Assembly: GCF_900105385.1 (NCBI RefSeq)
Contig: NZ_LT629772.1
Span: 434,001-498,000, forward strand
Direction of reading: 5' to 3'
DNA: 64,000 nt
From: Microlunatus soli
GTDB lineage: Bacteria > Actinomycetota > Actinomycetes > Propionibacteriales > Propionibacteriaceae
How positions within the stretch are numbered: the stretch's first letter is position 1; each line of letters begins with the position of its first letter. Made by a program: the position numbers and the translations under genes. Below are positions 10,661-63,629 of this stretch, piece after piece. The notes under the pieces were generated by a model, which was given only the letters and a program-made list of their open reading frames with translations, was not told where the DNA came from and searched no databases.

Positions 10661-10686
10661 ATACCCCGGACGGTTCGGCGGCAAAC
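10661..10686 (-). promoter_or_regulatory. Candidate stress-sigma promoter of the APC permease
   Basis: On the minus strand GTTT, 16 nt, GGGTAT. It matches the actinobacterial SigB/SigF-type consensus and lies directly upstream of the permease start. Confidence 0.5.
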
Positions 10687-10698
10687 CACTGCCCCGAA

Positions 10699-10723
10699 GA
10701 TTCACCGCCCACCGACGGGGTAA
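10699..10723 (+). promoter_or_regulatory. Candidate stress-sigma promoter of the 10775 gene
   Basis: GATT, 15 nt, GGGTAA, about 50 nt upstream of the next plus-strand gene. The -35 half is a weaker match than in the other copies. Confidence 0.4.
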
Positions 10724-10774
10724 CCCTCTGATCAGCAGGTGTCGCTGCCGAACGGGAGGACGGAGGTGGACGCG

Positions 10775-11251
10775 GTGCTCGACACCAAACGAAGGGAATT
10801 CCTGTCGCGTGGTCTGCGGGGCGCACGCAACGGCGCCGAGGCGACCGGGGCCATGACAGCGGCCTTCGCCGCGTTTGATCTGCTCGGTTGGCTCGGGCGG
10901 CTACCACCACGGCAGATCATCGAACGGCTACTCCCCGGTTCCTCCGAGCACACCCGACGGATCGCGACCGTAATCAGCCATACCGGTTACGGCGCCTTCT
11001 TCGGCGCCGGCTACGCATTCCTCCCGGGTCGCCGTTCCACCACGTTCGGAGTGATCTTCGGCCTTGCGATCTGCGCCGGCAACTACGAGGCACTGCTGCC
11101 CGCATTGAAGATCAGGCCACCTTTGCACGCCGATGACCGACGAGAGATCGCGGCAATGGTGCTCGCGCACATCGTGTACGGAGTGACCCTGCAACGGCGG
11201 ATCTCACAACGCGAGCGGTCAGTCGACTTGCACTCTGATACCGACAGCTGA
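10775..11251 (+). CDS. Small multi-pass membrane protein, unknown function
   Basis: About 158 residues with hydrophobic stretches around YGAFFGAGYAFLP, TTFGVIFGLAICAGNY and MVLAHIVYGVTL, giving three or four membrane helices. I do not recognise a defined family with certainty; it resembles DUF1440/DUF6789-type inner-membrane proteins. GTG 10775 is chosen because GGAGG lies 8 nt ahead; an in-frame GTG at 10739 is an alternative. It precedes the GlsB-like gene by 25 bp on the same strand. Confidence 0.7.
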   Translation: MLDTKRREFLSRGLRGARNGAEATGAMTAAFAAFDLLGWLGRLPPRQIIERLLPGSSEHTRRIATVISHTGYGAFFGAGYAFLPGRRSTTFGVIFGLAICAGNYEALLPALKIRPPLHADDRREIAAMVLAHIVYGVTLQRRISQRERSVDLHSDTDS

Positions 11252-11276
11252 TCCAGCACGTAATCAAGGAGGAACC

Positions 11277-11552
11277 ATGGGAACGATCATCGGCTACATC
11301 GTCATCGGTCTGCTGGGCGGCGTCATCGCCAAGCTGATCATCCCGGGCAAGCAGCCGGGAGGCATCATCGTCACCATGTTGCTGGGGATCGTCGGGGCGC
11401 TCCTCGGCGGCTTTCTCGGCGGACTGATCTTCCACGTCAAGTACAGCTCGATCTGGAGCTGGTCGGGTCTGATCACCTCGATCATCGGAGCGCTGATCGT
11501 GCTGCTGATCTACGGCCTGATCCGCGGCCGTACGGCGCGGCGGGCCGCCTGA
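11277..11552 (+). CDS. GlsB/YeaQ/YmgE-family stress membrane protein
   Basis: A 91-residue transglycosylase-associated protein family member with three glycine-rich membrane helices (MGTIIGYIVIGLLGGVIAK, then GIIVTMLLGIVGALLGGFLGG, shown here as landmarks). These are small envelope proteins induced by acid, osmotic and general stress. AAGGAGG lies upstream of the ATG. Probably co-transcribed with the preceding membrane gene. Confidence 0.9.
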   Translation: MGTIIGYIVIGLLGGVIAKLIIPGKQPGGIIVTMLLGIVGALLGGFLGGLIFHVKYSSIWSWSGLITSIIGALIVLLIYGLIRGRTARRAA

Positions 11553-11655
11553 TGATATGACGCCAGCCGAACGAAGGGCGTGGGTGCCTACGGTCGTATC
11601 GGAGCCACGCTCCTTCTCGGCCGACGGAGCGTCAGCCCGGACATCCGGATGATGA

Positions 11656-11838
11656 TCATGCTTCGCCGATCTCCTGATCCTCGTCTGGCGGTACCTCGTG
11701 TGCCTGGTCGAGTTGGTCGGCGACGTCGGCTGCCGATGAATCGATCTCGCGATCAGGATCGTTCGTCGGCTGCGCAGGCCAGGCTTCCTGTTCCTGTTCG
11801 GCCCTGTCTGCTTCCGGAATGTCGGGGTGCTCGGTCAT
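11656..11838 (-). CDS. Small acidic hypothetical protein
   Basis: A 60-residue, very acidic and probably disordered protein (MTEHPDIPEADRAEQEQ at the N-terminus, EVPPDEDQEIGEA at the C-terminus). The ATG at 11838 is preceded by a perfect AAGGAGG. It lies downstream of the VOC gene on the same strand, the last gene of the stress operon. Function unknown. Confidence 0.7.
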   Translation of the reverse strand: MTEHPDIPEADRAEQEQEAWPAQPTNDPDREIDSSAADVADQLDQAHEVPPDEDQEIGEA

Positions 11839-11894
11839 CTCAGCCTCCTTGTTGGGAACGCGGCCGTCGTTGTTCGCGATCCTTCTACTGCTGT

Positions 11895-12275
11895 TCAGTC
11901 CCAGCGCGTCGCCTGCTCGTCGAAATCCGTAGTGTGCGGCGGGATCACGCAGAATACGAGTCCGCCGGGATCGACCATCTGCCAATAGCGTCCTGCATCG
12001 CAGCTTCGCAGACGCCTGGCGCCGAGCGTCTCCAACCGATCGGCCTCTGCGTCGACGTCGTCTGTATCGACATCGAGGTGGACGCGCGGTCCGGTGTCGT
12101 CCTCCAGTCGCTGCAGTTCGATCACGATCTGTCCGGAGAACGTGCCGAGGGAGAAGTACGGGTCGCAGTCCTGTTCACCCGTTCTGCCCATCGCAGCAGC
12201 CCAGAACGCGCGACTGGCTTCGAATGACGTCGCGGGATGATCGATGAAGATTCCGCCGATCCGACTCTTGTGCAT
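11895..12275 (-). CDS. VOC (glyoxalase/bleomycin-resistance) family protein
   Basis: A 126-residue vicinal-oxygen-chelate protein with paired beta-alpha-beta-beta-beta modules: HKSRIGGIFIDHPA at the start, VHLDVDTDDVDAEADRLE in the second half and MVDPGGLVFCVIPP at the end. It could bind a metal and act on a small electrophile or simply bind a ligand. It lies 11 bp downstream of the SDR gene, same strand. Confidence 0.85.
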   Translation of the reverse strand: MHKSRIGGIFIDHPATSFEASRAFWAAAMGRTGEQDCDPYFSLGTFSGQIVIELQRLEDDTGPRVHLDVDTDDVDAEADRLETLGARRLRSCDAGRYWQMVDPGGLVFCVIPPHTTDFDEQATRWD

Positions 12276-12286
12276 GGTGCTCCTCC

Positions 12287-13189
12287 TCAGAAGACGGCCT
12301 TGCCGCCGGTGACGCCGATCACGGTTCCGGACACGTAGCTGGCCTCCGCCGGTGAGGCAAGGAAGACGTACGCGGGAGCAACCTCGGCAGGCTGGCCGGC
12401 TCGGCCGAGCGGGGTATCGCCACCGAAGGTCTCCAGGTGCTCGCCCTCTTGGGTGGCCGGCTGCAGCGGCGTCCAGATCGGGCCCGGCGCGACGGCGTTG
12501 ACCCGGATACCCCGCGATCCCAGCTCACCCGCAAGATTGACCGTGAAGTTGTTGATCGCGGCCTTGGTCGCTGCGTAGTCCAACAAGGTGGTGGACGGCT
12601 CGTAGGCCTGGATCGAGGTGGTGTTGATGATGCTCGACCCGCGCTGCAGCAACGGCACCGTTGCCCGGGTCAGCCAAAACAGGGCCTGCAGGTTCGTCGT
12701 CAGCACCCGGTTCAGGTCCTCGTCGCGCAGTTCTTCGATTCCCGGTGTCCGTGCCATCTGGAAACCGGCGTTGTTGATCAAGACGTCCACACCGCCGAGC
12801 GCCTGCACAGCACGCCCTGGCAACTCGCCGCACACCGTACGCTGCATGAGGTCACCGGGCAGCAGCGCGACCTCTTCGTCGGCGGCCCTGACCAATTCGG
12901 CGGTCTCCCGTGCGTCCTCTTCCTCGGAGTCCAGGTAGGAAAGCGCCACACTCGCACCTTCGCGGGCAAAAGCGATGGCGACGGCCCGGCCGATCCCGGA
13001 GTCGCCACCGGTGATCAACGCCCGAAGGCCTCGGAGACGTCCGTGCCCCACGTAGCTTTGCTCACCATGATCAGGGCGTGGGTTCATCTCGCCGGTCAGG
13101 CCCGGCGGCGTCTGTTCCTGTGTTGGGAACCCGCCGTTCTCATTCACCTTCCGCGCCGCCGCGGCGGCGACGTCGCTCGTTGATGCCAT
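12287..13189 (-). CDS. SDR-family oxidoreductase (general-stress type)
   Basis: A 300-residue short-chain dehydrogenase with a long N-terminal extension ending in MNPRPDHGEQSYVG, typical of the YhdG/GsiB-associated stress SDRs. TGGDSGIG is the NAD(P)-binding loop, INNAG the central motif, and Tyr-x3-Lys in LDYAATKAAI the catalytic pair. The C-terminal SYVSGTVIGVTGG closes the fold. Start ATG 13189 has GGGAG upstream. A close paralogue with the same extension lies at 62651-63541. Confidence 0.9.
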   Translation of the reverse strand: MASTSDVAAAAARKVNENGGFPTQEQTPPGLTGEMNPRPDHGEQSYVGHGRLRGLRALITGGDSGIGRAVAIAFAREGASVALSYLDSEEEDARETAELVRAADEEVALLPGDLMQRTVCGELPGRAVQALGGVDVLINNAGFQMARTPGIEELRDEDLNRVLTTNLQALFWLTRATVPLLQRGSSIINTTSIQAYEPSTTLLDYAATKAAINNFTVNLAGELGSRGIRVNAVAPGPIWTPLQPATQEGEHLETFGGDTPLGRAGQPAEVAPAYVFLASPAEASYVSGTVIGVTGGKAVF

Positions 13190-13200
13190 GGTTGCTCCCG

Positions 13201-13455
13201 TCAGCCGAGTTGGTCGTGCATCAGGTTGTCGACCGCTTCGCCTGCGCCGGCCAACCGTGCACAGTGCGCGCAGCAATACAGAGTGTTCTGACCTTCGATG
13301 CCGTGGCCGAGAATGCGGCAGCCGCAATGGGCACAATGCGGCGCGACCTTGGTGATGGCACACTCGAACGAGTCGAAGGAATAGGTCTCGCCGGTAGACG
13401 TCACGAGTTGAAAGCCGCCGACGTAGTCATTCCCGCAGGTGTCGCAGCGTGTCAT
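13201..13455 (-). CDS. Cysteine-rich zinc-ribbon protein
   Basis: 84 residues with CDTCGNDY at the N-terminus, a single Cys in SFECAITKVAP, then CAHCGCRI and YCCAHCARLAG, giving two or three Cys-pair metal sites. It resembles small prokaryotic metallothionein-like or zinc-ribbon proteins. The ATG at 13455 has GGGAAGG upstream. It lies 11 bp ahead of the SDR gene in the stress operon. Metal storage or a DNA/RNA-binding ribbon are both possible. Confidence 0.75.
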   Translation of the reverse strand: MTRCDTCGNDYVGGFQLVTSTGETYSFDSFECAITKVAPHCAHCGCRILGHGIEGQNTLYCCAHCARLAGAGEAVDNLMHDQLG

Positions 13456-13474
13456 GGTCTTGTGTCCTTCCCGT

Positions 13475-13897
13475 TTACGGTGTCGAAGCGTTCGAGACCT
13501 GGCGGATCCCTGGTTTTCTGCCTGCCCGGGGTCGCTGGGATTGGGCTTTGGCTCGACCCCGACGTCGCTGCCGAACGACGACGACCGGAACAGCGAGCGT
13601 GAGAAGGCCCGCCGCGACAACCCATAGCCGCGGACGGCCCTGGCCGTCTGCCGCCACCGACGATGCCCAGGTCGCAGCCGCGCCCAACACGGCGAGGCCG
13701 TCGCCGGACTGATGCCTGATCTGATGGGCGGCGTGTTGCGCCTGAGCCTTCACATCCAGCTTCTCCGACAACGCCTCGACGCTCTCAGTCAACCGTTCAC
13801 GAGTTGCGGTGATATCGGCGTTCAACTCGTCGGCATCGGCCTCGGGGCCTGGACGATCCAATTGACCTGGATGATCATTTGCTGGGCTTGTCGTCAT
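13475..13897 (-). CDS. DUF3618 protein
   Basis: 140 residues. ADITATRERLTESVEALSEKLDVKAQAQH at 28-56 is the DUF3618 helix signature, followed by one membrane helix (WVVAAGLLTLAVPVVVV) and a basic tail. DUF3618 proteins usually sit beside holin-like and YtxH genes, as here: its start overlaps the end of the holin-like gene. Likely membrane-associated; function unknown. Confidence 0.88.
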   Translation of the reverse strand: MTTSPANDHPGQLDRPGPEADADELNADITATRERLTESVEALSEKLDVKAQAQHAAHQIRHQSGDGLAVLGAAATWASSVAADGQGRPRLWVVAAGLLTLAVPVVVVRQRRRGRAKAQSQRPRAGRKPGIRQVSNASTP

Positions 13898-14333
13898 GGT
13901 GCCTTCCCTCCTTGACCGCGTCGACGTCGGCCTTCATACTGGCGATCAGCTGTCCCGCCGGAGGTGGCGCCTTCAGAGCTTGCCCCCTGCCGATCAAGGC
14001 GAGGATTCCGGCCACCACAAGCACCGCAAGCGAGATGATCAAGGCCGCCAGCCACCATGGCGCCACCAGTGCCAAGGCGATCATCGCAGTGGCGATCAGG
14101 CCTCCAAGCCCGAACAACGCCAGAATCCCTGCAGCCCCGAACATTCCGATGCCGAGGCCGGCGTGCCGGGCGGAATCGGCCAGGTCCACCTTGGCCAATT
14201 GCAGCTCGTCTCGGATCAGCCGCACCAGCTGGTCGGACAGGTCGGTCATCAGCCGGCCCACCGATTGATCACCTCTCGTCAGTGGTTCGCCGCCGGTGGC
14301 GCCGCGCCGTGCCGGGCTGGCATCGGCGGTCAC
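13875..14333 (-). CDS. Phage-holin-family (DUF1469-like) membrane protein
   Basis: 152 residues. RLMTDLSDQLVRLIRDELQLAKVDLADSARH is the family signature, followed by two membrane helices around residues 60-110. Despite the name these chromosomal proteins are not phage holins; they accompany DUF3618 and YtxH genes in stress loci. GTG start at 14333 overlaps the preceding gene by four bases and the 3' end overlaps the DUF3618 gene by 23 bases. Confidence 0.85.
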   Translation of the reverse strand: MTADASPARRGATGGEPLTRGDQSVGRLMTDLSDQLVRLIRDELQLAKVDLADSARHAGLGIGMFGAAGILALFGLGGLIATAMIALALVAPWWLAALIISLAVLVVAGILALIGRGQALKAPPPAGQLIASMKADVDAVKEGRHHDDKPSK

Positions 14334-14692
14334 GTTCGACCCCCATTCGAGGTGACTGTGCTGTCATCGGGGTCCGGCTCGGGCGCTCGGGGGGTGCCGT
14401 CCTCCTCGGTGAAGTAGCTCTGGTCGGCAGTGCCTTCCTGCTTGCTTTCCGGAACTCTGTCGGATGCTCTGTGCACGGCTTGGCTGGCAGTGTCCTTGGC
14501 CTTACTGGCCGCGTGGGCCGCACCGTCCTTGACGGTGTCCGCCGCCTGCGAAGCCGTGTCCTGAACCCGCGGATCGTTCCAGACCCGGCTCACTTGTCCC
14601 TTGATCTGGTCGTAGCGTTCCCGGCCGGCTCTCGCGCCGAGCAGATAGCCGATCACTCCACCCGCAACGCCGATGAGAATCTTGCCCCACAT
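14330..14692 (-). CDS. YtxH-like membrane-anchored protein
   Basis: 120 residues: one N-terminal helix with GXXXG packing (GKILIGVAGGVIGYLLGAR), then a long Ala/Asp/Lys-rich amphipathic segment (TASQAADTVKDGAAHAASK) like YtxH and LEA-type stress proteins. It probably sits on the membrane and interacts with the overlapping holin-like and DUF3618 proteins. ATG 14692 starts just before the helix. Confidence 0.82.
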   Translation of the reverse strand: MWGKILIGVAGGVIGYLLGARAGRERYDQIKGQVSRVWNDPRVQDTASQAADTVKDGAAHAASKAKDTASQAVHRASDRVPESKQEGTADQSYFTEEDGTPRAPEPDPDDSTVTSNGGRT

Positions 14693-14732
14693 GGTGCCTC
14701 CACCTTCTTCGGATCGTGCTGTTGTCTGCGGC

Positions 14733-15314
14733 CTATTCGCGTGCCCTGGCCAGCGCGTCCTTGGCCCGATCGACCAGGGCAACGAACGGGCCGATCGTCC
14801 ATTGCCTGGCCGGCGACCCGGCTGTGCCGGGATGGGGGCGAGTGGGCGCGATCTTCTCGACCGCCTCGATCCGGCGGCCCAACGTCCGGCGCTGCTGGAG
14901 ATCGAGCGCTTCCAGCACCGGCGGAAATTCCTCGTTCTCCTCGCTCTCCGCATGCGCAGCGACTGCGCCGGCGAACTGCTGGGAATCTCGATCAAACTCC
15001 GGGCTCTCCAGCTTCAACGACTCCAACTGCTCCAGGACGGCATTGGCCTCCTGCTCCTCGGCATTGCGTGCATCGGCGATGCCGGAGGCAGCGATCGTCT
15101 CCGTCACCGGACGCAGCACCATCTCCCCGGCGGTCTCGTGCACCGCCAACAGGCCACGCAGTTCCTCGAACGCCTGCTGTCGCTGTTCGCCATGTGATAG
15201 CCGCACCTCGTCCAGAAGATCATGGATTGTCGCATGCTGGTTCAGCAGGATGGTGATCACATCGCCGTCAGGCAGCTGGCCAGCCTTGCGGCGATCTTCG
15301 GCGGCGTTGTCCAT
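14733..15314 (-). CDS. Hemerythrin HHE-domain protein
   Basis: 193 residues, four-helix bundle. ILLNQHATIHDLLDEV and GLLAVHETAGEMVLRPV carry the first histidines, and AHAESEENEEFPPV the third-helix ligands, of an oxygen- or NO-responsive diiron site. ATG 15314 with GAGGAG upstream is chosen over a TTG at 15332. It is the first gene after the stress-type promoter at 15353-15376 and probably heads the operon extending to 11656. Confidence 0.85.
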   Translation of the reverse strand: MDNAAEDRRKAGQLPDGDVITILLNQHATIHDLLDEVRLSHGEQRQQAFEELRGLLAVHETAGEMVLRPVTETIAASGIADARNAEEQEANAVLEQLESLKLESPEFDRDSQQFAGAVAAHAESEENEEFPPVLEALDLQQRRTLGRRIEAVEKIAPTRPHPGTAGSPARQWTIGPFVALVDRAKDALARARE

Positions 15315-15352
15315 CGGATGCTCCTCTGTCAATCAAATCTCTGACGGGACAG

Positions 15353-15376
15353 GTACCCGGTCAGGAGGGACGAAAC
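15353..15376 (-). promoter_or_regulatory. Candidate stress-sigma promoter of the hemerythrin operon
   Basis: Minus strand GTTT, 14 nt, GGGTAC. A start near 15346 would leave a leader of about 30 nt before the hemerythrin ATG. Confidence 0.6.
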
Positions 15377-15446
15377 GTGCGGCGGGTGGAGCCGTCGTCC
15401 GAAATCCGAGACCGTACTCGGCGCGAGAGGATTCCGAGGACGTTGC

Positions 15447-16124
15447 TCACGGTGATGCAGGCCGTGCCCCCGCATCCAGAGTCGGATCGATGCCGGCGCG
15501 ATCGACCTTGCGGTGGTAGTGCATCCCGGCCAGCCCACCGAGCACCGCACCAGCCAGGCTGACTGCTGCCAGGCCGGTGGCGACGATGGTGCCCGCAGTC
15601 GTCAGAGTGCCCTCGTTGAGCGGGATCCGCGGAAAACTGTTGATCTTGGCCAGAATGTCGAACTTCGCGCCCGCGATCAGCCCGACAACGGCGATCACAA
15701 CGGCCACCAAGATCGCCCACAGCCAGACCCCGAAACCCTGCTTGACCCCGCTGAATCGGGCCATCCGGCCGGCGACGTAGCCACCGGCGAAGTAGGCCAC
15801 GAACAGCACCACCAGCAGAACGGCACCTCCGGCCAGCCCAACGGTGCCAGGATTCTTCGTCGCGTCCTGTCGAAGATCACTTCCCAGTCCGATCGCCGCC
15901 CCGGTCGCGCCGATGATCGCAGTCAGCAAGAGTGAGGCCCCGGTCGCGGTCAACCAACCGAAGAAGGCGCTACCGAATTTCATTCCACCGTAGGCTGCAC
16001 GCTGAAGCCCGACGACCGTTCGACGCCCGCTGTCAAAGTGCTCACCACCGGTGCGCGTAGCCCCGTGCTCCTCGGCCGCGATGGGGTGAGATCGCGGTCC
16101 CTGCTCGTGCCCTGCTGTGCTCAT
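15447..16124 (-). CDS. Four-helix membrane protein, unknown function
   Basis: 225 residues. After about 45 polar residues come four membrane helices: WLTATGASLLLTAIIGATG, VGLAGGAVLLVVLFVAYFAGG, VWLWAILVAVVIAVVGLIAG and a C-terminal Gly/Ala-rich helix. A GRMARFSGVKQG loop joins helices 2 and 3. I recognise no named domain. Same strand as the hemerythrin operon, separated by 130 bp containing that operon's promoter. Confidence 0.75.
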   Translation of the reverse strand: MSTAGHEQGPRSHPIAAEEHGATRTGGEHFDSGRRTVVGLQRAAYGGMKFGSAFFGWLTATGASLLLTAIIGATGAAIGLGSDLRQDATKNPGTVGLAGGAVLLVVLFVAYFAGGYVAGRMARFSGVKQGFGVWLWAILVAVVIAVVGLIAGAKFDILAKINSFPRIPLNEGTLTTAGTIVATGLAAVSLAGAVLGGLAGMHYHRKVDRAGIDPTLDAGARPASP

Positions 16125-16200
16125 AGTTCAGTGCCCTTCGAACCCCGTGGCCCGAAGCGCTGCTGCTTCGCACTGGATTTTGTTGATCATGACCTGGCCC

Positions 16201-16398
16201 CTACTTCCAGCCGTCGTCCGTGTCTCGGTCACCGGCTCGATCGGTAGCCTCGTCGACCGCCGGCTCATCGGCCCGATGGGGCGCGGTGCCGGTCGACTTG
16301 TCCGTTGAATCCGCGCCGCCACGTTGGACCTCTTCGATGTCGGAGAGTTCCGACACCTGTCGTTCACGCTTCTTCGGCTCCTCGCGTGGAGTACTCAT
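16201..16398 (-). CDS. Small charged hypothetical protein, possibly leaderless
   Basis: 65 residues, highly charged and likely disordered (MSTPREEPKKRERQVSEL at the N-terminus). There is no Shine-Dalgarno sequence, but a stress-type promoter at 16408-16432 would start transcription within a few bases of the ATG, so the mRNA may be leaderless. That promoter is the main support for the gene. Confidence 0.5.
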   Translation of the reverse strand: MSTPREEPKKRERQVSELSDIEEVQRGGADSTDKSTGTAPHRADEPAVDEATDRAGDRDTDDGWK

Positions 16399-16407
16399 AA
16401 GCGGCCA

Positions 16408-16432
16408 GTACCCGTCGTCGGAGTCTGTAACC
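16408..16432 (-). promoter_or_regulatory. Candidate stress-sigma promoter of the 65-residue gene
   Basis: Minus strand GGTT, 15 nt, GGGTAC, ending 10 bp before the ATG at 16398. Confidence 0.5.
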
Positions 16433-16448
16433 GCGTGTTCGAGACGGG

Positions 16449-17057
16449 TCAGCTGACCGCGGGATACTCGTTGGGTTGCAGGATCGAGACAAGGTGTGCC
16501 GCATTCGCGGCGAGCGTCCCGGTCGTGGTGGCCACCTTCTCCGGTACCGCCGCCAGATCCTTGAAGTCGGTGGTGTGCATCGCCTCACCATTCCAATACA
16601 CGCCGGACTGCGCGGGCACGGTGAAGCCTACGTCGTTCAGCGCCTGCAGGGCGATCGCGATGATGTGGTGCGCACCGTCCTCGTTTCCCACCACTGCGAC
16701 GACGGCGACCTTGCCGTAGGTCAGCGGCCTACCGTGATCGTCGGTCTCGGACAATTCGGCATCCAGCCTCTCGAACACCCGCTGGCAGACACTGCTGTGC
16801 TGCCCCAGCCAGGTCGGTGTGGCGAGGACCAGGATGTCGGCAGCCAACAGCCGCCGACGGATCTCCGGCCAGGCATCACCGTCGCCCATGTCGGCCTCGA
16901 CCCCTGGTCGGACATCATGATCGACGACGCGGATCATCGACCCGTTGACATCGTGTTCGGCCAGCGCATCGAGCACCTGCTGGGCGATCAGCTCGGTACT
17001 CGATGGGGTGGGTGACGGGTTGAGCGTGCAATTCAGCGCCAGTGCAGTGATAGACAT
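16449..17057 (-). CDS. NAD(P)H-dependent flavodoxin-fold oxidoreductase
   Basis: 202 residues. ALALNCTLNPSP at the N-terminus is the phosphate-binding loop of flavodoxin-like FMN reductases, and ADILVLATPTWLGQHSSV is the FMN isoalloxazine-binding loop. Usual length for NADPH:FMN reductase or quinone reductase relatives. ATG 17057 follows GGAGCAAA. Cytoplasmic. Divergent from the MFS transporter at 17174. Confidence 0.85.
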   Translation of the reverse strand: MSITALALNCTLNPSPTPSSTELIAQQVLDALAEHDVNGSMIRVVDHDVRPGVEADMGDGDAWPEIRRRLLAADILVLATPTWLGQHSSVCQRVFERLDAELSETDDHGRPLTYGKVAVVAVVGNEDGAHHIIAIALQALNDVGFTVPAQSGVYWNGEAMHTTDFKDLAAVPEKVATTTGTLAANAAHLVSILQPNEYPAVS

Positions 17058-17173
17058 CAGAGTTTGCTCCTTGGATCGTCGCGAATCTCTGCTACCCCGA
17101 TCACCTGGAGCCAATCGCCTCAGCGGGCCGTCCAGAACCGGTGCCCGACGACCTGGTTGGGTAAACAGCCGGC

Positions 17174-55765: not shown

Positions 55766-55789
55766 GTTTATTGTCCTCCGACCGGGTAG
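55766..55789 (+). promoter_or_regulatory. Candidate stress-sigma promoter of the 47-residue acidic protein
   Basis: GTTT, 14 nt, GGGTAG, 51 nt ahead of the GTG. Confidence 0.5.
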
Positions 55790-55839
55790 ACCTGAGTCAC
55801 CGGAGATCGCCGGTGTGACCCGATGGGAGCGTGGCTGCC

Positions 55840-55983: not shown

Positions 55984-56022
55984 CGCATCGTGTGGTTGTC
56001 CAACGGCGCCAACGCGTCAAGC

Positions 56023-56187: not shown

Positions 56188-56606
56188 TACCCACCTTGCC
56201 TGCCACCGAAAGACCCGACGCCTCGCGGTGACTTCGTCACGACCTGGCCACCGTCCGGATGGACGCGGGCCGGAAGAACGGTGCGCCGCCAGCTGATGGC
56301 GGCGGCGCACCGCTTCAAGTCCTGGCCCGCGTGCGTGAGTTCACCCACCGACGGTGGATCGCTCTCCGGCAGGTTGCTGCAGCCCGTATCCCCCGACATT
56401 GGAGCTGCCCTGCCCACACTCGACGCCGCGACTCCCCCGAATCACGGCGTTGCCAGTCCCATTCACCGAACCGCAGAGGTCTCCCGGGCTTCTGCGGGCT
56501 CGGCGTACTTCCTGGCAGAACGCTAGCACCAAAATCCTCATTTGTCCTAAAACGGACATTTCCGGTTTCGGACACATCGAATCTTCCCTTCAGAGGCGAA
56601 GCCGGT
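56188..56606. other. No confident gene; contains a hairpin and short inverted motif
   Basis: GGTGCGCCGCC (from 56280) pairs with GGCGGCGGCGCACC, a GC-rich hairpin; near 56545 TGTCC-N6-GGACA could be a protein site. Nothing codes recognisably. Confidence 0.3.
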
Positions 56607-57248: not shown

Positions 57249-57259
57249 CTGACCACCCT

Positions 57260-57300
57260 AGGCGGTCAATTTCACCCCTTGGGGTGAAGATCGACCGCCT
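57260..57300. promoter_or_regulatory. Nested inverted repeat upstream of the LuxR regulator
   Basis: AGGCGGTC (57260-57267) pairs with GACCGCCT (57293-57300); inside it TTCACCCC (57271-57278) pairs with GGGGTGAA (57281-57288). It lies 12 bp ahead of the ATG and could be an operator or leader hairpin. Confidence 0.55.
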
Positions 57301-57438
57301 CGAGAAACCTAGCTTGGTTGCTGTCGGTCCGCGGCAGGCACGGCAGCGGACCGGCGCCACCGGTCGTCGCAGCATGCTTACGGCGTCGGCCGCATTGCAC
57401 GCGTGCCTGACCAACTCAGGCGTTGCTCGCAAGGAATC

Positions 57439-57478
57439 GGTCCTCATGGAACCCCCGACCCATGAGGACCTGTTTCTT
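57439..57478 (+). terminator. Terminator-like hairpin upstream of the ANTAR gene
   Basis: GGTCCTCATGG (57439-57449) and CCATGAGGACC (57460-57470) pair perfectly around a 10-nt loop, followed by TGTTTCTT. It sits 50 bp ahead of the ANTAR ATG and could be a terminator or leader attenuator. Confidence 0.5.
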
Positions 57479-57527
57479 GTCCCGTGACGCCCGGCAGTGC
57501 GGGGAGCGACGAACGGTAGGAGAGGTG

Positions 57528-57992
57528 ATGACAGCAGGGGGCGACAACCGGGGGCCGGCGCTCGGTGTGGACGGGGACGACATTCTCGATCGGGTCCGCA
57601 ACGTCATCGGGAGTCAACAGCTGCTCGAGGGCTACCGACAGGCCTTGACCGAGGCCGAGAAGCAAATCGCCACCCTCACCGAAGCCGTACACAGCAACCG
57701 AAGCATCGGCATCGCCGTCGGGATCGTGGCCGAGCGGTACGGCATCGGTCCCGACGTCGCCTTCGACTACCTGAAGCGTCTCAGTCAGGACAACAATCGC
57801 AAGCTGCGAGACCTTGCCGCAGAACTCGTCGCCGAGGGAAAGCTCGCCGACCAGGACCCCGTCTGGAGCGGACCGCAGGCCTCGAACGGCCGGACCCGAA
57901 CAGTCACCGATCGGTCGAATCCTTCGAGCCAACATGATCGTGATGGCGCCGCCGCAACCGAGGCGACCCAGAACGCACGACGTTCCCGGTAG
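57528..57992 (+). CDS. ANTAR-domain protein
   Basis: 154 residues: a coiled helix (YRQALTEAEKQIATLTEAV), then ANTAR (SNRSIGIAVGIVAERYGI, RLSQDNNRKLRDLAAELV) and a disordered tail. There is no GAF domain, so it resembles single-domain ANTAR antiterminators regulated by partners. ATG 57528 with TAGGAGAG upstream. A hairpin precedes it; the 58059 gene follows after 66 bp. Confidence 0.85.
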   Translation: MTAGGDNRGPALGVDGDDILDRVRNVIGSQQLLEGYRQALTEAEKQIATLTEAVHSNRSIGIAVGIVAERYGIGPDVAFDYLKRLSQDNNRKLRDLAAELVAEGKLADQDPVWSGPQASNGRTRTVTDRSNPSSQHDRDGAAATEATQNARRSR

Positions 57993-58006
57993 CGATCCGA
58001 GCGACC

Positions 58007-58012
58007 GGGTAA
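58007..58012 (+). promoter_or_regulatory. Possible stress-sigma -10 of the SRPBCC gene
   Basis: GGGTAA with GGTA 15 nt upstream (57988-57991), 46 nt ahead of the ATG at 58059. The -35 half is a poor match. Confidence 0.3.
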
Positions 58013-58058
58013 GAGAACAACCGACAGCTGTTCATCGATCGACACCGCAGGAGGAGAC

Positions 58059-58508
58059 ATGGGTATCGCCCAGGACAGTATTGATGTCAACGTCCCGATC
58101 CAGAAGGCGTACAACCAGTGGACGCAGTTCGAGTCATTCCCGCAATTCATGAACGGTGTCAAGAGCGTCGAGCAGCTCGATGACAAGCATCTGCACTGGA
58201 AGATCTCTGTTGCCGGAGCATCCCGCGAGTACGACGCGGAGATCACCGAACAACGTCCGGACGAGGTGATCGCCTGGCAGTCATCCGGTGACAACGATCA
58301 TTCCGGCACGGTCACGTTCGAACAACTCGACGACACCACCACCAAGGTGACGGCGGCGATCGGTTACTCCACCGAGGGCGCGACCGAGAAGCTCGCCGAT
58401 GCCGTTAATGCACCGGAACGCCAGTTGAGCAGCGATCTCGCGCGATTCAAGAAGTTCATCGAGTCTCCAGAGCCGGAGACCGGCGCTTGGCGCGACGAGA
58501 TCCACTGA
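58059..58508 (+). CDS. SRPBCC-family (polyketide cyclase-like) protein
   Basis: 149 residues: SIDVNVPIQKAYNQWTQFES at the N-terminus and HWKISVAGASREYDAEITE with FEQLDDTTTKVTAAIGYST form the START-like helix-grip fold that binds hydrophobic ligands. Members of this type are stress- and osmotically induced. GAGGAG precedes ATG 58059. Ligand unknown. The topoisomerase starts 14 bp later. Confidence 0.88.
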   Translation: MGIAQDSIDVNVPIQKAYNQWTQFESFPQFMNGVKSVEQLDDKHLHWKISVAGASREYDAEITEQRPDEVIAWQSSGDNDHSGTVTFEQLDDTTTKVTAAIGYSTEGATEKLADAVNAPERQLSSDLARFKKFIESPEPETGAWRDEIH

Positions 58509-58522
58509 ACGGGTGGTGAGAC

Positions 58523-59527
58523 GTGCGGCTGCGACGTAGCGACCCGTCGCAGCCGGGGTGGACACGACGACGACGCGGCGCGGGATTCAGCTACCACCGC
58601 CCGGACGGCTCCCGGATTGCTGCCGGAGAAGCAGAACGGGTCCGCGGACTGGCGATCCCCCCTGCATGGCAGGAGGTCTGGATCTGCCCGTGGGACAACG
58701 GCCACTTGCAAGCCGAGGGCACCGACGCTGCCGGCCGACGCCAATATCTGTATCACCCGGACTGGCGTCGGCGGCGCGATACAGAGAAACACGCCCGTGC
58801 GATTGAGCTCGCCACAATGCTTCCACGGATTCGGCGGTCGATCGAAGAACAACTTGATGGACACGGTTGGCCGCGGCAGCGGACCCTCGCGGTAGCGCTG
58901 AGAATGCTTGATCATGGAGTGTTCCGCACCGGCGGAGAGGAATACCTCGAACAGAACGGCTCCTACGGCGTCGCCACGCTGCTCAGATCCCAGGTTCGAG
59001 TGAACGGTTCGATGCTCTCGTTCTCCTACACCGCCAAGGGCGGTATCGACAGAACGATGAGTCTGCGTGATCCCGCATTGGCCCACGCAGTCACCCGACT
59101 CCGACGGATCCGTAGCGACACAGACCGGCTGCTGGTGTATCGATCGCGCGGTGCCGTTCACCAGCTCAGGTCGGCGGACCTGAACGAGCGGTTCCAGGAA
59201 CTCGCCGGTGAACAGTTCTCCGTAAAGGACCTGCGGACCTGGAGCGCAACCGTGCTGGCGGCGGTCGAACTGGCTAAGGCAGACCCGCCACGCTCGTTGC
59301 GGGCTTCCCGGGCGATCGAGCGTTCGGTGTTGGACGACGTAGCAGATCACCTCGGCAACACACCCACAACCGCACGCAAGTCGTACGTGGACCCGCGCCT
59401 ATTCGACTTCTTCGAGCGTGGCGAGACGATCGCGGCCGGCCCGCAACGTCCCGGCCCGATCGACGAGAGCGACGCCACGGTCCGAGACAGGGCGGAACGG
59501 TCAGTCCTGCGCCTGTTACAGGGATGA
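58523..59527 (+). CDS. DNA topoisomerase IB
   Basis: 334 residues. N-terminal DNA-binding domain with WICPWDNGHLQAEGTDAAGR, then the catalytic core: RTGGEEYLEQNGSYGVATLL, Arg/Lys residues (SYTAKGG; VKDLRTWSATV), and the active Tyr in TARKSYVDPRL. It relaxes supercoils by a 3'-phosphotyrosyl intermediate. Start GTG 58523 gives normal bacterial TopIB length. Stop overlaps an in-frame ATG of the catalase frame. Confidence 0.9.
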   Translation: MRLRRSDPSQPGWTRRRRGAGFSYHRPDGSRIAAGEAERVRGLAIPPAWQEVWICPWDNGHLQAEGTDAAGRRQYLYHPDWRRRRDTEKHARAIELATMLPRIRRSIEEQLDGHGWPRQRTLAVALRMLDHGVFRTGGEEYLEQNGSYGVATLLRSQVRVNGSMLSFSYTAKGGIDRTMSLRDPALAHAVTRLRRIRSDTDRLLVYRSRGAVHQLRSADLNERFQELAGEQFSVKDLRTWSATVLAAVELAKADPPRSLRASRAIERSVLDDVADHLGNTPTTARKSYVDPRLFDFFERGETIAAGPQRPGPIDESDATVRDRAERSVLRLLQG

Positions 59528-59561
59528 GCACACCGGGACTGCTGTCCTCGCTGGCCTTCTG

Positions 59562-59585
59562 CGTTGACCATCACGAACCGGGTAT
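59562..59585 (+). promoter_or_regulatory. Candidate stress-sigma promoter of the catalase gene
   Basis: CGTT, 14 nt, GGGTAT. It lies downstream of ATG 59524 and 43 nt upstream of ATG 59629, supporting the later start. Confidence 0.5.
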
Positions 59586-59628
59586 AGCTCAAGCGGCCAG
59601 GAACGCCTCAGCCAGCGAAGGACACGCC

Positions 59629-61815
59629 ATGACCATGATTCCCGGACGCCCGAGCAGTGTGACTCCACCGGTCGACGAGCCGACCGAGCCGATTGAGCCG
59701 GCCGACTCCAAACCCGACCAGGACACACCGGAGGCACGCACGCCCACCGGAATTCCGGCCGGAACGCCCGAGGCCGGCCGCCAACAGGGTGCGCATCTCA
59801 CCACGTCCCAGGGTGCTCGACTGCGGGACAGCGATCACTCGCTGAAGGCCGGCGAGCGAGGACCGAGCCTCTTGCAAGATCATCATCTGCGAGAGAAGAT
59901 CACCCATTTTGATCATGAACGGATCCCGGAGCGGGTGGTGCATGCCCGCGGCGCCGCAGCACACGGTGTCTTCGAGGGATACGGGACTGCGGAGCCGATC
60001 ACCATGGCCGGGTTCCTGGCCAAGGGCAAACAGACTCCGGTCTTCACCCGGTTCTCCACGGTGCTGGGCTCCCGCGGGTCCGCCGATACCGTACGCGACA
60101 CCCGCGGGTTCGCCACGAAGTTCTACACCGACGAGGGAACCTTCGACTTGGTCGGCAACAACATTCCGGTCTTCTTCATCCAGGACGGCATCAAGTTCCC
60201 CGACGTGGTCCACGCAGCCAAACCGCACCCCGATCGGGAGATTCCGCAGGCCCAGAGTGCGCACGACACGTTCTGGGACTTCGTCTCACTGCACACCGAG
60301 GCACAGCACCACACCATCTGGAACATGTCCGATCGCGGCATCCCCCGCTCGTTTCGGATGATGGAGGGCTTCGGCGTGCACACCTTCCGGATGATCAACG
60401 CCGATGGCGATTCGACGCTGGTCAAGTTCCACTGGAAGCCGCGCTTGGGCGTGCACTCGGTGACCTGGGAGGAGGCCCAACTGATCAACGGGATCGACCC
60501 GGACTTCCATCGACGAGATCTCGCCGACGCGATCGAAGCCGGCGGCTACCCGCAGTGGGAGCTCGGCATCCAGACATTCCCCGACACCCCGGAGCAGACC
60601 TTCCAGGGCATCGACCTGCTCGACCCGACCAAGATCGTTCCGGAGGAGCTGGTGCCGGTTCAGCCGATCGGATTGCTGACCCTGAACAAGAATGTCAGCA
60701 ACTACTTCGCCGAGACCGAACAGGTCGCCTTCCACCCCGGCCACCTGCCGCCCGGCATCGACGTCACCGACGACCCCCTGCTGCAGGCGCGACTGTTCTC
60801 CTACATCGACACCCAGATCACACGGCTCGGTGGACCCAACTTCAACCAGATCCCGATCAACAGAGCGCATGCTCCGGTCAACGACATGCTCCGCGACGGC
60901 TTCCACCAGGACGCCGTCCACAACGGAGTCGCACCGTACAAACCCAATTCGCTGGACGGCGGCTGCCCGTTCTTCGCCGGCACAGCGGACAAGCCGTTCG
61001 TCGATGCCGCGGTCACGATCCCCGACGGTTCGGCGAAGGTTCGCGCCCAACCGGCCTCCTTCGATGATCATTTCAGCCAGCCGCGACTGTTCTGGCAGAG
61101 CATGAGTCCGGTGGAGCAGCAGCACATCATCGGCGCCTACACCTTCGAGCTGAGCAAGGTGTACGAGCAGGCGATCAAGGAACGCCAACTGATCGCGCTG
61201 GCCAACATCGATGCGACCCTCTGCGCAGAGGTCGCCGCCGGACTCGGCCTGGGCGTGCCGAAAGCCACCGAGCAGCCGGTGGAGATGTCGCCGAGCCCGG
61301 CGCTGTCCCAGGTCGGACGGGAGTGGCCGCTCGACGGCCGGTTGGTCGGCATCGTCACCGATGCCGACCCCGACGCAGCGCAGCTCCGAGAGCTGCGAGA
61401 GGAGATCAGCTCGACCGGGATGGTGCCGTTGATCATCGCGGCGCACGGCGGCAGCATCGAGGACATCCCCATCCAGCGGACGTTCAGCAACACCCGGTCG
61501 GTCGAATTCGATGCGGTGCTGCTGGCTGGCTGCCCGGCGCCCGCACCCGATGCCCAGGTCAGCCGGGACTCCAAGGCCGGTGCAACCGGCGACGATCAGC
61601 TGGATCCACGGGTGATGCTGCTGATCGCGGAGTGCTTCCGCCAGGCCAAGATCATCGGCGCCTGGGGCCCAGGCACGGATGCGCTGCGAATTGCCGGCGA
61701 CTACTCCGGGGTCGGCATCGTCACCGACCCCGCGCCGGGGGCCGTGCTGAACGAAGTCCGGCGGCTGCTGGGAACCCACCGTGCCTGGGATCGTTTCCCG
61801 GCTGTCCCTGCCTGA
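59629..61815 (+). CDS. katE: Large-subunit haem catalase (HPII type)
   Basis: 728 residues. HARGAAAHG has the distal His, [12 protein letters not shown] the distal Asn, and RLFSYIDTQ the haem-ligating Tyr. After the beta-barrel and helical catalase core comes the C-terminal DJ-1/PfpI-like domain ([29 protein letters not shown]) found in large clade-2 catalases. It breaks down hydrogen peroxide. ATG 59629 is preferred to ATG 59524 because GAAGGA and the promoter precede it and the extra residues are not catalase-like. The usual stress-induced stationary-phase catalase. Confidence 0.94.
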
Positions 61816-61866
61816 ACTCGTCTGCATCGTGGCTGTCCCAGGTGAGTCCGAGCCGTGCTGATGGGT

Positions 61867-61891
61867 GGTTCGGTTGGCAGCGATCGGGTAC
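61867..61891 (+). promoter_or_regulatory. Candidate stress-sigma promoter of the 61952 gene
   Basis: GGTT, 15 nt, GGGTAC, 61 nt ahead of the ATG. Confidence 0.55.
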
Positions 61892-61951
61892 CGGAGCACT
61901 GGAGGGCCGGTAGCGGTCCCCCAGTCAGGTCAACCGCATCGAGGAGTTGAG

Positions 61952-62278
61952 ATGCCGCAAGAAGCGTGGACCAAGAAGCAGGAGCGGCAGTACGAGCACA
62001 TCAAGGCCGGTCAGAAGAAGGAAGGCCGCTCGACCGACCGCGCCGAAGAGATTGCCGCTCGCACGGTGAACAAGCAGCGCGCCCAGGCCGGTGAGTCCCG
62101 GCAGCGGAGCAAGACGTCGACCGAGGACACCTCGGCCTACCGGCGTGGCGGCAAGCAGTCCGGGTCGGGACCTCGTGGCCGTACCCGGGACCAGCTGTAC
62201 AACGACGCCAAGAAGCAGGGCGTCAAGGGCCGGTCCAAGATGAACAAGGCACAGTTGGAGAAGGCCGTCGGACGCTGA
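61952..62278 (+). CDS. Plasmid-stabilisation/Rho-N-like basic protein
   Basis: 108 residues, basic. MPQEAWTKKQERQYEHIKAG and AEEIAARTVNKQRAQAGES match chromosomal proteins often labelled plasmid stabilisation protein; the C-terminal helix-loop-helix TRDQLYNDAKKQGVKGRSKM resembles a Rho-N/SAP nucleic-acid-binding motif. A stress promoter precedes it and a bidirectional hairpin follows. Confidence 0.82.
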   Translation: MPQEAWTKKQERQYEHIKAGQKKEGRSTDRAEEIAARTVNKQRAQAGESRQRSKTSTEDTSAYRRGGKQSGSGPRGRTRDQLYNDAKKQGVKGRSKMNKAQLEKAVGR

Positions 62279-62308
62279 TCGGCATCGATCAGGTCACTGA
62301 GGCGTAGG

Positions 62309-62344
62309 GTAGCGAGCCGTAGGTATCAGCCTCCGGCTCGCTAC
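62309..62344. terminator. Bidirectional terminator hairpin
   Basis: GTAGCGAGCCG (62309-62319) and CGGCTCGCTAC (62334-62344) form an 11-bp perfect stem between convergent genes 61952 (+) and 62356 (-). Confidence 0.6.
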
Positions 62345-62355
62345 GCAGATGATCA

Positions 62356-62547
62356 TCAGGTGTCATGCTTCTTCGTCCACTCGCGGCGGTGGCGGGCCAG
62401 GTACACCTGCCCCGCCGCGACCGCCAGCAGCACGACGCCGGCGCTGATCATCATCCACCAGCGCCCGGTCGCTATACCGACGCCACCGGCGAAGATCAGC
62501 GCCAACACGACGATCACGATTCCGACCTGTATTCCCTGCCAGGGCAT
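62356..62547 (-). CDS. Two-helix membrane protein
   Basis: 63 residues from ATG 62547 with AAAGGAG ahead: helices VGIVIVVLALIFAGGVGIA and MMISAGVVLLAVAAGQVYL, and a basic tail. Follows the SDR gene on the same strand. Function unknown. Confidence 0.7.
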   Translation of the reverse strand: MPWQGIQVGIVIVVLALIFAGGVGIATGRWWMMISAGVVLLAVAAGQVYLARHRREWTKKHDT

Positions 62548-62650
62548 CGGTCTCCTTTCATCGAATCCCTCGACTCCTTCCAGCTGCTCGCCTTCGTCAC
62601 CGGCATTGGCCCCTCGTCTTCGGTGTTCTGTGGTGCTACCGCACGCAAGA

Positions 62651-63541
62651 TCAGGAGACGGGCGTTCCGCCGGTGACACCGAGCATCTCGCCGGTGATGT
62701 AGGACGAGTCGGTTGATGCGAAGAAGACGTACACGGGTGCGACTTCCGCCGGCTGCCCCGGACGTCGCAGCGGTGTCGACTCGCCGTGCTGCTCGGCCTG
62801 GGACGGTGGCATCGTCGCCGGGATCAAGGGCGTCCAGATCGGCCCCGGCGCGACCCCGTTCACTCGGATTCCGCGGTCGGCGAGCTCGGCGGCGAGGCCG
62901 CGGGTGAAGTTGTGGATCCCTGCCTTGGTGGTGGCGTAGTCCAGCAGTTGCGCGGATGGGGCCACCGCCTGCACCGACGCGGTGTTGATGATCACCGAGC
63001 CCGGTGCCATCTGCGGCACCACCATCTTGCACAGCCAGAACATCGCGTACAGATTCGTCTTCATCACCCGATCGAACTGCTCGCTGCTGATGTCCTTGAT
63101 GCCACCCGGTTGTGCCATCTGATGGGCAGCGTTGTTGACCAGGATGTCGATGCCACCCAACTGGTCGATCACGTCGTCGACGAGCTGCTGACAGGTCGAC
63201 TCCGAGGTGATGTCGCCCGGATGTCGGACCGCCCGCCGCCCGGCCGACTCGATCAGCTCGGCGGTACGTCGGGCGTCGGTCACTTCCTCGGGAAGGTAGT
63301 TGATCGCCACATCGGCACCTTCACGGGCGAACGCGAGTGCGACGGCACGACCGATCCCGGAGTCACCGCCGGTGATCAGCGCGCGTTTGCCGACCAGTCG
63401 TGCGTTACCCCGATAGCTCTGCTCACCGTGGTCGGGCTCCTCGGTCATCTGTTCGGTGAGGCCCGGATGTTCCAGTTGATCACTGTGCGGCTCGGGCCGG
63501 CCGCTTCGGTTTCGCGGATCGTCGGTCTGCTCTGTCGGCAT
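62651..63541 (-). CDS. SDR-family oxidoreductase (general-stress type)
   Basis: 296 residues. N-terminal extension ending MTEEPDHGEQSYRG, NAD(P) loop TGGDSGIG, VNNAAHQM in place of NNAG, Tyr-x3-Lys in LDYATTKAGI and ITGEMLGVTGG at the end. Paralogue of 12287-13189. ATG 63541; a stress-type motif lies at 63568-63593. Divergent from the DUF2188 gene across 126 bp that hold both promoters. Confidence 0.92.
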   Translation of the reverse strand: MPTEQTDDPRNRSGRPEPHSDQLEHPGLTEQMTEEPDHGEQSYRGNARLVGKRALITGGDSGIGRAVALAFAREGADVAINYLPEEVTDARRTAELIESAGRRAVRHPGDITSESTCQQLVDDVIDQLGGIDILVNNAAHQMAQPGGIKDISSEQFDRVMKTNLYAMFWLCKMVVPQMAPGSVIINTASVQAVAPSAQLLDYATTKAGIHNFTRGLAAELADRGIRVNGVAPGPIWTPLIPATMPPSQAEQHGESTPLRRPGQPAEVAPVYVFFASTDSSYITGEMLGVTGGTPVS

Positions 63542-63567
63542 CGCTACTCCTCTTCCTCGGTGACCCA

Positions 63568-63593
63568 GTACCCACGGAGCTACCAGTCGAAGC
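63568..63593 (-). promoter_or_regulatory. Candidate stress-sigma promoter of the 62651 SDR gene
   Basis: Minus strand GCTT, 16 nt, GGGTAC, 27 nt ahead of the ATG. Confidence 0.45.
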
Positions 63594-63605
63594 ACTCGGC
63601 CGAGG

Positions 63606-63629
63606 GTTGGCGGTGGTCGCAGCGGGTAA
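63606..63629 (+). promoter_or_regulatory. Candidate stress-sigma promoter of the 63668 DUF2188 gene
   Basis: GTTG, 14 nt, GGGTAA, 38 nt ahead of the ATG. Back to back with the SDR promoter. Confidence 0.55.

Follow-up and report, generated by a model that had tools for sequence, protein, structure and literature searches.

Do the many promoter-like sites in this DNA, for which an earlier note had proposed a SigB/SigF-type stress regulon, belong to one sigma factor, and where is that factor encoded? We put the probability at roughly 85% that the window, the whole stretch of 64,000 nucleotides analysed here, is the middle of a region that holds the gene of one SigB/SigF-type sigma factor and, clustered near it, the promoters which that factor uses. 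The sites, their orientation and clustering, the sigma gene and a partial conservation in relatives were computed directly, and the features are collected in Table 1.

Placement of the sites

The pattern GTT-N13-16-GGGTA occurs 19 times in the window, and 15 of these matches precede a called start by at most 250 nt and share its strand (14 of the 15 being intergenic); the remaining four have no called gene downstream, and two are inside genes. Genes were called with our own script, no standard gene finder being used; the upstream count is 15 from both gene sets used, which disagree on one site each. The upstream zone makes up 15.7% of strand-positions, which gives a binomial p of 1.7e-9 for the window sites. 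Across 100 Markov-1 simulations the mean was 1.6 matches (maximum 6), with 0.3 upstream (maximum 2), and 19 other orderings of GGGTA as the -10 box gave 1-11 matches, 0-3 of them upstream.

By using a matrix trained on 42 sites taken only from other, related genomes, with a spacing of 14-16 nt in the training set, we found 28 matches at a score of at least 12 in the window; 19 are upstream of a gene in the correct orientation, and two stand before an opposite-strand gene only. The earlier estimate of about 18 sites was therefore correct, and the five sites that it named individually exist, with the first base of the -10 box at 10666 (-), 15358 (-), 19939 (-), 48923 (+) and 53778 (+). Between 394 and 516 kb of the chromosome the same matrix gives 31 sites upstream of genes, versus two in 240 kb sampled elsewhere in the genome; sites are rare across the remainder, and 11 of the 26 genome-wide matches to GTTT-N13-16-GGGTA fall within 110 kb. 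The density comparison that had been suggested thus showed an upstream excess over genes and over simulated and permuted controls, not an equal density, and a compositional artefact is ruled out by the simulations together with the permuted -10 boxes and the sampled parts of the genome.

Table 1 Features of the locus (window positions unless marked as chromosome; scores are matrix scores)
Feature	Position	Strand	Context	Score
In-window part of the island	10662..63961	.	from mapping of sites and sigma gene	
SigB/SigF-type sigma gene	chromosome 399,213-400,163	-	left edge of the stretch, ~34 kb left of the window	
SigF-type site, GTTT-N16-GGGTA	10662..10686	-	before amino-acid permease 9280-10650 (Pfam)	21.4
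Probable operon	12287..15314	-	hemerythrin, YtxH-like (below cut-off), Holin-X family, DUF3618, 84-aa protein, SDR (Pfam)	
SigF-type site	15354..15376	-	head of hemerythrin operon	19.6
SigF-type site	16409..16431	-	before 65-aa protein 16201-16398	17.5
SigF-type site with GGGCA	17142..17166	-	before FMN-reductase-like gene 16449-17057 (Pfam)	15.1
SigF-type site	19935..19958	-	before GAF-ANTAR gene 19037-19813 (Pfam)	21.9
SigF-type site	29724..29747	-	before DUF2188 29466-29687 and ligase-domain gene 28450-29469 (Pfam)	17.1
SigF-type site	41526..41549	-	before 108-aa protein 41106-41432, without Pfam match	17.2
SigF-type site	43890..43912	-	before DUF4383 gene 43277-43828 (Pfam)	13.3
SigF-type site	48903..48927	+	before LigD 3'-phosphoesterase-type gene 49064-49681 (Pfam); overlaps a dubious gene call on the opposite strand	21.5
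Weaker site, GTGT	51604..51627	-	before LigD-type ligase 50567-51535 and primase-polymerase 49686-50570 (Pfam)	12.1
SigF-type site	52307..52329	+	before 62-aa protein 52373-52561 and carbonic anhydrase 52610-53242 (Pfam)	15.5
SigF-type site	53760..53782	+	before 77-aa protein 53844-54077	14.7
SigF-type site	55766..55788	+	before 47-aa acidic protein 55840-55983	15.4
Weaker site	56188..56212	-	before 54-aa called gene 56023-56187	12.6
Weak site, GTTG-N13-GGGTA	59563..59584	+	before catalase 59629-61815 (Pfam)	11.6
SigF-type site	61868..61890	+	before 108-aa protein 61952-62278	17.7
Site with GCTT	63569..63593	-	before SDR 62651-63541 (Pfam)	14.1
SigF-type site	63606..63628	+	before DUF2188 gene 63668-63889 (Pfam)	18.1
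SigF-type site	63937..63961	+	heads gene run past the window end into gas-vesicle genes; first gene of the run has no Pfam match	20.9

Extent and content of the locus

The site-rich stretch covers about 396-514.5 kb of the chromosome, roughly 118 kb, and sites continue beyond the window on the left and on the right; the proposal of a dedicated stress locus is thus upheld, but the 53 kb originally assigned to it are too short by about half. Because some 120 kb hold a large share of the sites, with the sigma gene at the edge, the general-stress response seems to be packed in one place. The sigma gene is the genome's best SigB/SigF/SigG match at 204 bits, the next best reaching at most 134 bits. 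Its protein scores 203.8-204.5 bits against TIGR02980 and 215 bits against PRK07122, under the curated cut-offs of 234.35 and 372; the TIGR02980 model is strict, since only one of 14 control genomes passes it. Among NCBIfam models, SigF (PRK07122) and SigBFG score highest on this protein, ahead of RpoD and others, and judging from these matches the protein is named SigF-type and not entered as a TIGR02980 member. No site scores at least 9.5 within 250 nt upstream of sigF; by eye we noticed GATT-N13-GGGTAT about 390 nt upstream.

The stretch includes gas-vesicle genes (at chromosome 498,055-503,338, beyond the window end), ergothioneine-type and LigD-type genes, and its unnamed small proteins include acidic ones of 46-47 aa. 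A search of the window found no tRNAs and no Rfam families. Some details of the earlier note needed amending: the gene downstream of its 10661 site is an amino-acid permease, and DUF2188, counted three times, is found by Pfam in two genes of the window, with one further gene at 411.7 kb. The sites claimed for the catalase, the LigD-type ligase and the right-end SDR are present, but the first is weak and the other two have GTGT and GCTT as their -35 elements. Once produced, the sigma factor would direct RNA polymerase to start transcription at GKTT(T)-N14-16-GGGTA promoters, and the hemerythrin, catalase, DNA-end-repair, ergothioneine-type, gas-vesicle and many small-protein genes would be switched on jointly; their products, we infer, guard against oxidative, osmotic and DNA damage.

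Conservation in relatives

Positions were listed for 14 of the 20 genomes of the genus (left out were G001, G005, G008, G013, G014 and G015), and 12 of these 14 have a site no more than 10 kb from their best SigF homologue, where about one is expected; this 10-kb rule and the island borders were chosen post hoc, with the data already seen. Two genomes have no cluster. Two of the three closest SigF homologues belong to G007 and M. endophyticus, and in each of these genomes a single upstream site was found near sigF, in the 80 kb and 21 kb covered, respectively. Homologues of island genes carry a site in relatives in 11 of 23 cases where the island gene has its own site, versus 14 of 90 where it has none (p 0.0034); for the other 12 of the 23, the partner in the relative is without a site. 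Sites also precede relatives' homologues of the SDR, 84-aa and hemerythrin genes of the hemerythrin operon, of the catalase (in G006 and Mycolicibacterium), of the 77-aa protein 53844-54077 (G006) and of the 108-aa protein 61952-62278 (G009).

Alternative explanations

Operators, too, may gather near the gene of their own regulator, and the motif could be read as a repressor or activator operator and not a sigma-factor promoter. We regard this as very improbable: the motif is asymmetric and follows the orientation of the genes, 31 of the 43 matrix matches in the island being correctly oriented upstream and two standing only before an opposite-strand gene, the spacing of the 42 training sites keeps to 14-16 nt, and the motif equals the SigF/SigB promoter form in the published excerpts used here. 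It is also unlikely that copying produced the sites as a side effect, through duplication of a few promoter segments or their arrival with imported genes, most of the sites now being out of use. The low coding density (0.72 versus 0.917 in genome samples) and GC3 (0.776 versus 0.861) of 444-498 kb, its three transposase genes and the sequence shared in two pairs of the 31 upstream flanks would suit such an origin, but no more than these two pairs match each other, sites are present also in flanking parts of normal coding density, and they are retained at homologues in other genomes.

Finally, another sigma factor, or several, might read the sites, with the 399-kb gene a mere neighbour. Several SigB paralogues of S. 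coelicolor share promoters (PMC8346170, in part), and the sigma gene here is without a clear site of its own; the gap in bit score to the next SigB/F/G-type matches and the finding that 12 of 14 genomes have a site close to their best SigF homologue nevertheless make this very improbable, too. We thus infer that the 399-kb sigma factor reads these sites.

Control of the sigma factor

No HATPase_c_2 match, as an RsbW-type gene would give, was found in 374-558 kb, and a hidden RsbW elsewhere in the genome was rejected, all 13 HATPase_c_2 matches sitting in called genes of 392-827 aa; the same search recovers RsbW-like frames of 154-158 aa in Mycolicibacterium. STAS matches number six in the genome, five in called genes of 510-609 aa, which by eye resemble SulP-type transporters, and one in a 198-aa gene. 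From these searches, the island's sigma factor may be controlled without the usual RsbW brake.

A conserved leader of about 60 nt precedes sigF (four leaders compared), and in the 1.0 Mb searched the leader model R1 matches only the four leaders used to build it. In the modelled fold, a hairpin just before the start codon may hide the sigF Shine-Dalgarno sequence. No paired position has changed on both sides among the four sequences, and the fold is therefore plausible, unproven by covariation. ANTAR target RNAs, as described in the excerpt of PMC3369931 used, have two hairpins with hexaloops whose first base is A and whose fourth is G. The first loop of the leaders is AGCAAA, AGCAAC, AGCAAC or AGCAGC, with A4 instead of G4, and a scan of the four for AxxGxx hexaloops found none; an ANTAR target RNA was rejected on the missing G4. 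In two relatives a GAF-ANTAR gene immediately precedes sigF. We tentatively suggest that this branch could do without RsbW, with the sigF mRNA as the switch, some factor opening the leader hairpin and so firing the gathered regulon; the opener would perhaps be the GAF-ANTAR protein, or a ligand, another protein or an RNA.

Relation to known systems

A locus of this kind is already known, since a SigF-type locus in Mycolicibacterium has 13 sites, and in M. smegmatis sigF has many SigF-dependent genes as neighbours, in the run MSMEG_1758-1804 (PMC4694148; here and below, papers are cited from excerpts). SigF-dependent by microarray in that species, from promoters like those of the island, are hemerythrin, catalase, dehydrogenase/reductase, topoisomerase I and ChaB genes (Table 1 of PMC4694148); the last three families are common to the island and the sigF run, whereas hemerythrin and catalase, common to the island and the regulon, lie away from that run. 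This match, the sigma gene in the same stretch and the scarcity of sites elsewhere bear out the SigB/SigF-type stress reading of the earlier note. The island sites also fit the mycobacterial promoter forms GGWWT-N16-17-GGGTAY and GTTT-N14-19-GGGTA, the latter that of the M. smegmatis regulon, spacing being counted differently between the papers (PMC7693655, PMC4694148), and those of the S. coelicolor SigB family, with a GNNT to GTTT -35 and a GGGTA(C/T)-like -10 (PMC8346170). That species has nine SigB paralogues with common promoters (PMC8346170), whereas here one clear gene of the type is present, and in M. smegmatis sigF and the anti-sigma gene rsbW share a transcript and control works by partner switching (PMC7693655), whereas no RsbW-type gene was recognised in the island. 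The island is longer than the M. smegmatis run, to which it adds the gas-vesicle, ergothioneine-type and LigD-type genes. The SigB regulon of B. subtilis, unlike the island, has scattered targets and RsbW/RsbV control. Its promoters, GTTTAA-N12-14-GGGWAW, are like those of the island (quoted in PMC8346170).

The island is set apart by its size, the extra modules, the lack of a recognisable RsbW and the conserved leader before sigF. We found no open-licence paper joining SigF and DUF2188 or sigma B and gas vesicles, and the open-licence papers on Microlunatus, sigma factors and stress, judging by their titles, describe no SigF regulon. The stress regulon is so dense here that raw sequence alone reveals it, yielding about 30 candidate promoters and flagging many unnamed small proteins, among them DUF2188, DUF4383 and acidic ones of 46-47 aa, as probable products of stress genes. 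It also raises two questions: for what reason the targets cluster around the sigma gene and, if there is no anti-sigma factor, what keeps the SigF-type factor in check. The sigF leader offers a small and concrete test object.

Promoter-like sites in the window and the genome

On the single 6.73-Mb contig, of which the window is positions 434,001-498,000 of the forward strand, the rule GTT-N13-16-GGGTA finds 19 matches in the window. For 15 of these, a called start with the same orientation follows within 250 nt; the upstream zone so defined covers 15.7% of the window's strand-positions (p = 1.7e-9 for upstream placement). One hundred Markov-1 simulations gave a mean of 1.6 matches, 0.3 of them upstream, and when the -10 box was permuted into each of its 19 other orders, no version exceeded 11 matches in total or 3 upstream. 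The remaining four sites have no called gene downstream and two of them lie within genes, which counts against the reading. The cluster of promoter-like sites, proposed in the earlier note from the sequence alone, is real.

The form GTTT-N13-16-GGGTA occurs 26 times in the genome (9 in the reversed control). The window contains 6 of these matches, and the span from 404.8 to 514.5 kb contains 11, of which 5 are in flanks that the earlier note had not seen; when 26 matches were placed at random 20,000 times, the real count in 64 or 120 kb was never equalled. Of the 8 genome-wide matches to GGTT-N14-16-GGGTAC (control 6), the window holds 4, and one more lies at 396.5 kb. Outside the window, upstream sites by the GTT rule number 0 at 374-394 kb, 4 at 394-434 kb, 4 at 498-518 kb and 0 at 518-558 kb, and 2 across twelve evenly spaced 20-kb genome samples. 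A matrix trained on 42 sites, all from other genomes, and applied at a score of 12 or more gave 43 matches in 394-516 kb (31 upstream), 6 in the other 62 kb of the 374-558 kb stretch (1 upstream) and 13 in the 240-kb samples (2 upstream); 31 of the 43 are oriented with the downstream gene, and 2 stand only before a gene on the opposite strand.

The sigma gene and its relatives

The genome's top SigB/SigF/SigG match reaches 204 bits, against 134 bits or less for the four others, and is encoded at 399 kb on the minus strand. Its gene sits at the island's left edge, adjoining a ferritin-domain, Dps-like gene. The match falls below the curated cut-off of 234.35, and we therefore call the protein SigF-type; its best named match is from Microlunatus endophyticus (62% identity).

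Site positions were listed for 14 of 20 same-genus genomes, and in 12 of these 14 the best SigF homologue has a GTTT-type site no more than 10 kb away; the count takes G041 and G012 as one species, the M. endophyticus entry, because their SigF coordinates agree. In a 13-genome test, with the 10-kb limit chosen after the first site listings, 12 genomes had such a site against 0.97 expected (p = 1.6e-13); in the fourteenth, M. endophyticus, the nearest is about 65 kb from SigF. The homologues in 10 of 13 relatives share only 39-46% identity with the M. soli sigma factor. In regions selected for listed sites or the SigF gene, GTT-rule upstream sites number 8 in 80 kb (G006), 9 in 80 kb (G010) and 6 in 20 kb (G019); away from SigF, 7 in 40 kb (G018) and 9 in 80 kb (G009, which has 2 in 20 kb at SigF); they are few in G007, with a single one in 80 kb, and in M. 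endophyticus, with one in 21 kb.

The 113 reciprocal best pairs come from several genomes and hence are not independent; in these pairs, the relative has a site in 11 of 23 cases where the M. soli gene has its own, versus 14 of 90 where it has none (p = 0.0034); by operon, the figures are 23 of 47 versus 13 of 66 (p = 0.0019). In a SigF-type locus of Mycolicibacterium, 20.7 kb contain 13 sites. Of these, 11 precede genes, including homologues of the island's catalase, hemerythrin, iron-redox, Dps-like and TPP-enzyme genes. Site statistics, sigma gene and relatives taken together, the SigB/SigF assignment made in the earlier note is well supported by computation.

Gene content of the island

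By Pfam domains, genes with a matrix site directly before them or heading their run comprise the hemerythrin operon, a GAF-ANTAR gene, a DUF2188 gene together with a ligase-domain gene, a DUF4383 gene, a LigD phosphoesterase, a LigD-type ligase and a primase-polymerase, carbonic anhydrase, catalase (weak site), FMN reductase, SDRs, an iron-containing redox enzyme, a gas-vesicle run, a TPP enzyme, an AI-2E-family transporter, a CsbD gene, a pyridoxamine-oxidase-like gene and a glutamate-cysteine-ligase-family gene heading EgtB-, EgtC- and EgtD-like genes (the Egt names being our own reading of the domains). No site scoring 9.5 or more lies directly upstream of the island's Ku, phosphoketolase, K+ transporter and topoisomerase IB genes, or of DUF2188 at 411.7 kb. 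A phosphoenolpyruvate carboxylase gene (window 24478-27321) also lies inside the island without a strong site. Two acidic paralogues of 46-47 aa share the stretch DDEEVDDLPDSY; a SigF-type site was found for the one at 55840-55983 and none for that at 39148-39288. A weak GvpU-like match (36928-37473; 30.6 bits, cut-off 70) lies far from the gas-vesicle run.

Coding density at 444-498 kb is 0.72 (sample mean 0.917) and GC3 0.776 versus 0.861 in the samples, while genes shorter than 120 aa make up 36% in 444-515 kb versus 10%. With three transposase genes in the window, this middle part appears to be a zone that is growing and was in part imported. An SDR at window 40507-41042 is split into two called genes, with Pfam matching the second part only, and is probably a broken gene.

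Coordinates of transposase genes (window) and of sigF leaders (DNA stretches, L)
Feature	Location	Strand	Basis
Transposase, rve type, sparse middle part	window 30143-31269		Pfam
Transposase, IS481 type, sparse middle part	window 33815-34807		Pfam
Transposase, Mutator type, sparse middle part	window 45384-46610		Pfam
sigF leader, directly before start codon	L015:6161-6223	-	alignment of four genomes
sigF leader, directly before start codon	L034:9913-9973	+	alignment of four genomes
sigF leader, directly before start codon	L045:19861-19919	-	alignment of four genomes
sigF leader, directly before start codon	L042:684-741	-	alignment of four genomes

Control of sigF

No recognisable RsbW-type anti-sigma factor was found in the M. 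soli genome: each of the 13 HATPase_c_2 matches falls within a called gene, these genes being 392-827 aa long, and the best has E = 1e-8. For Mycolicibacterium the same search gave 1e-28, 1e-23 and 5e-22, the second and third of these from frames of 158 and 154 aa, and for G010 it gave 6e-20; G006, G007, G009, G012 and G019 had no match better than 3e-9, with one of the 17 in G006 lying in a 136-aa frame. A diverged anti-sigma factor may be present in M. soli. In G010, a SpoIIE plus HATPase_c_2 gene (C1:639281-640795, in L048/L049), divergent from sigF and preceded by a SigF-type site, likely encodes a one-piece partner-switch regulator.

Over the 60 nt that lead up to the sigF start, mean identity among M. 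soli, G006, G007 and M. endophyticus is 80%, compared with 59-62% for the 120 nt farther upstream and 63-65% for stretches sampled from the first 300 coding nt. Of the 64 columns in the alignment, which takes in the start codon, 39 are the same in all four. Folded alone, all four leaders are predicted to form a GTGG/CCAC hairpin and a GTTCTC/GAGAAC hairpin, the latter enclosing a Shine-Dalgarno-like AGGGG or AGGCGG immediately before the start codon (folding z of -4.5 in M. soli and -2.5, -3.0 and -1.7 in the others). In longer pieces, the GTTCTC/GAGAAC hairpin was predicted in 3 of 3, and the GTGG/CCAC hairpin as drawn in M. soli only. The structure is only a proposal, because the four leaders contain no compensatory base change; a model built from them (R1) recovered only those four in 1.0 Mb searched. 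The leader is a candidate for a new regulatory RNA. In G007 and M. endophyticus, sigF is directly preceded on its own strand by a GAF-ANTAR gene or one similar to it; in M. soli the next gene upstream on that strand is a DUF222 gene.

Relation to mycobacterial SigF regulons

According to a microarray study of M. smegmatis (PMC4694148), a near-continuous SigF-dependent run lies within MSMEG_1758-1804, sigF being 1804, with a promoter form matching the sites here; it includes dehydrogenase/reductase, topoisomerase I and ChaB genes, and the SigF-dependent hemerythrins and KatA lie outside it. A second source gives the consensus as GGWWT-N16-17-GGGTAY and describes an rsbW-sigF operon (PMC7693655). 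A hemerythrin-like protein of M. smegmatis represses sigF, according to a third (PMC4295536), so the island hemerythrin might feed back on sigF. The island is a probable clustered SigF regulon of a kind known in mycobacteria; compared with the mycobacterial loci, the M. soli variant is larger, and its control seems unusual.
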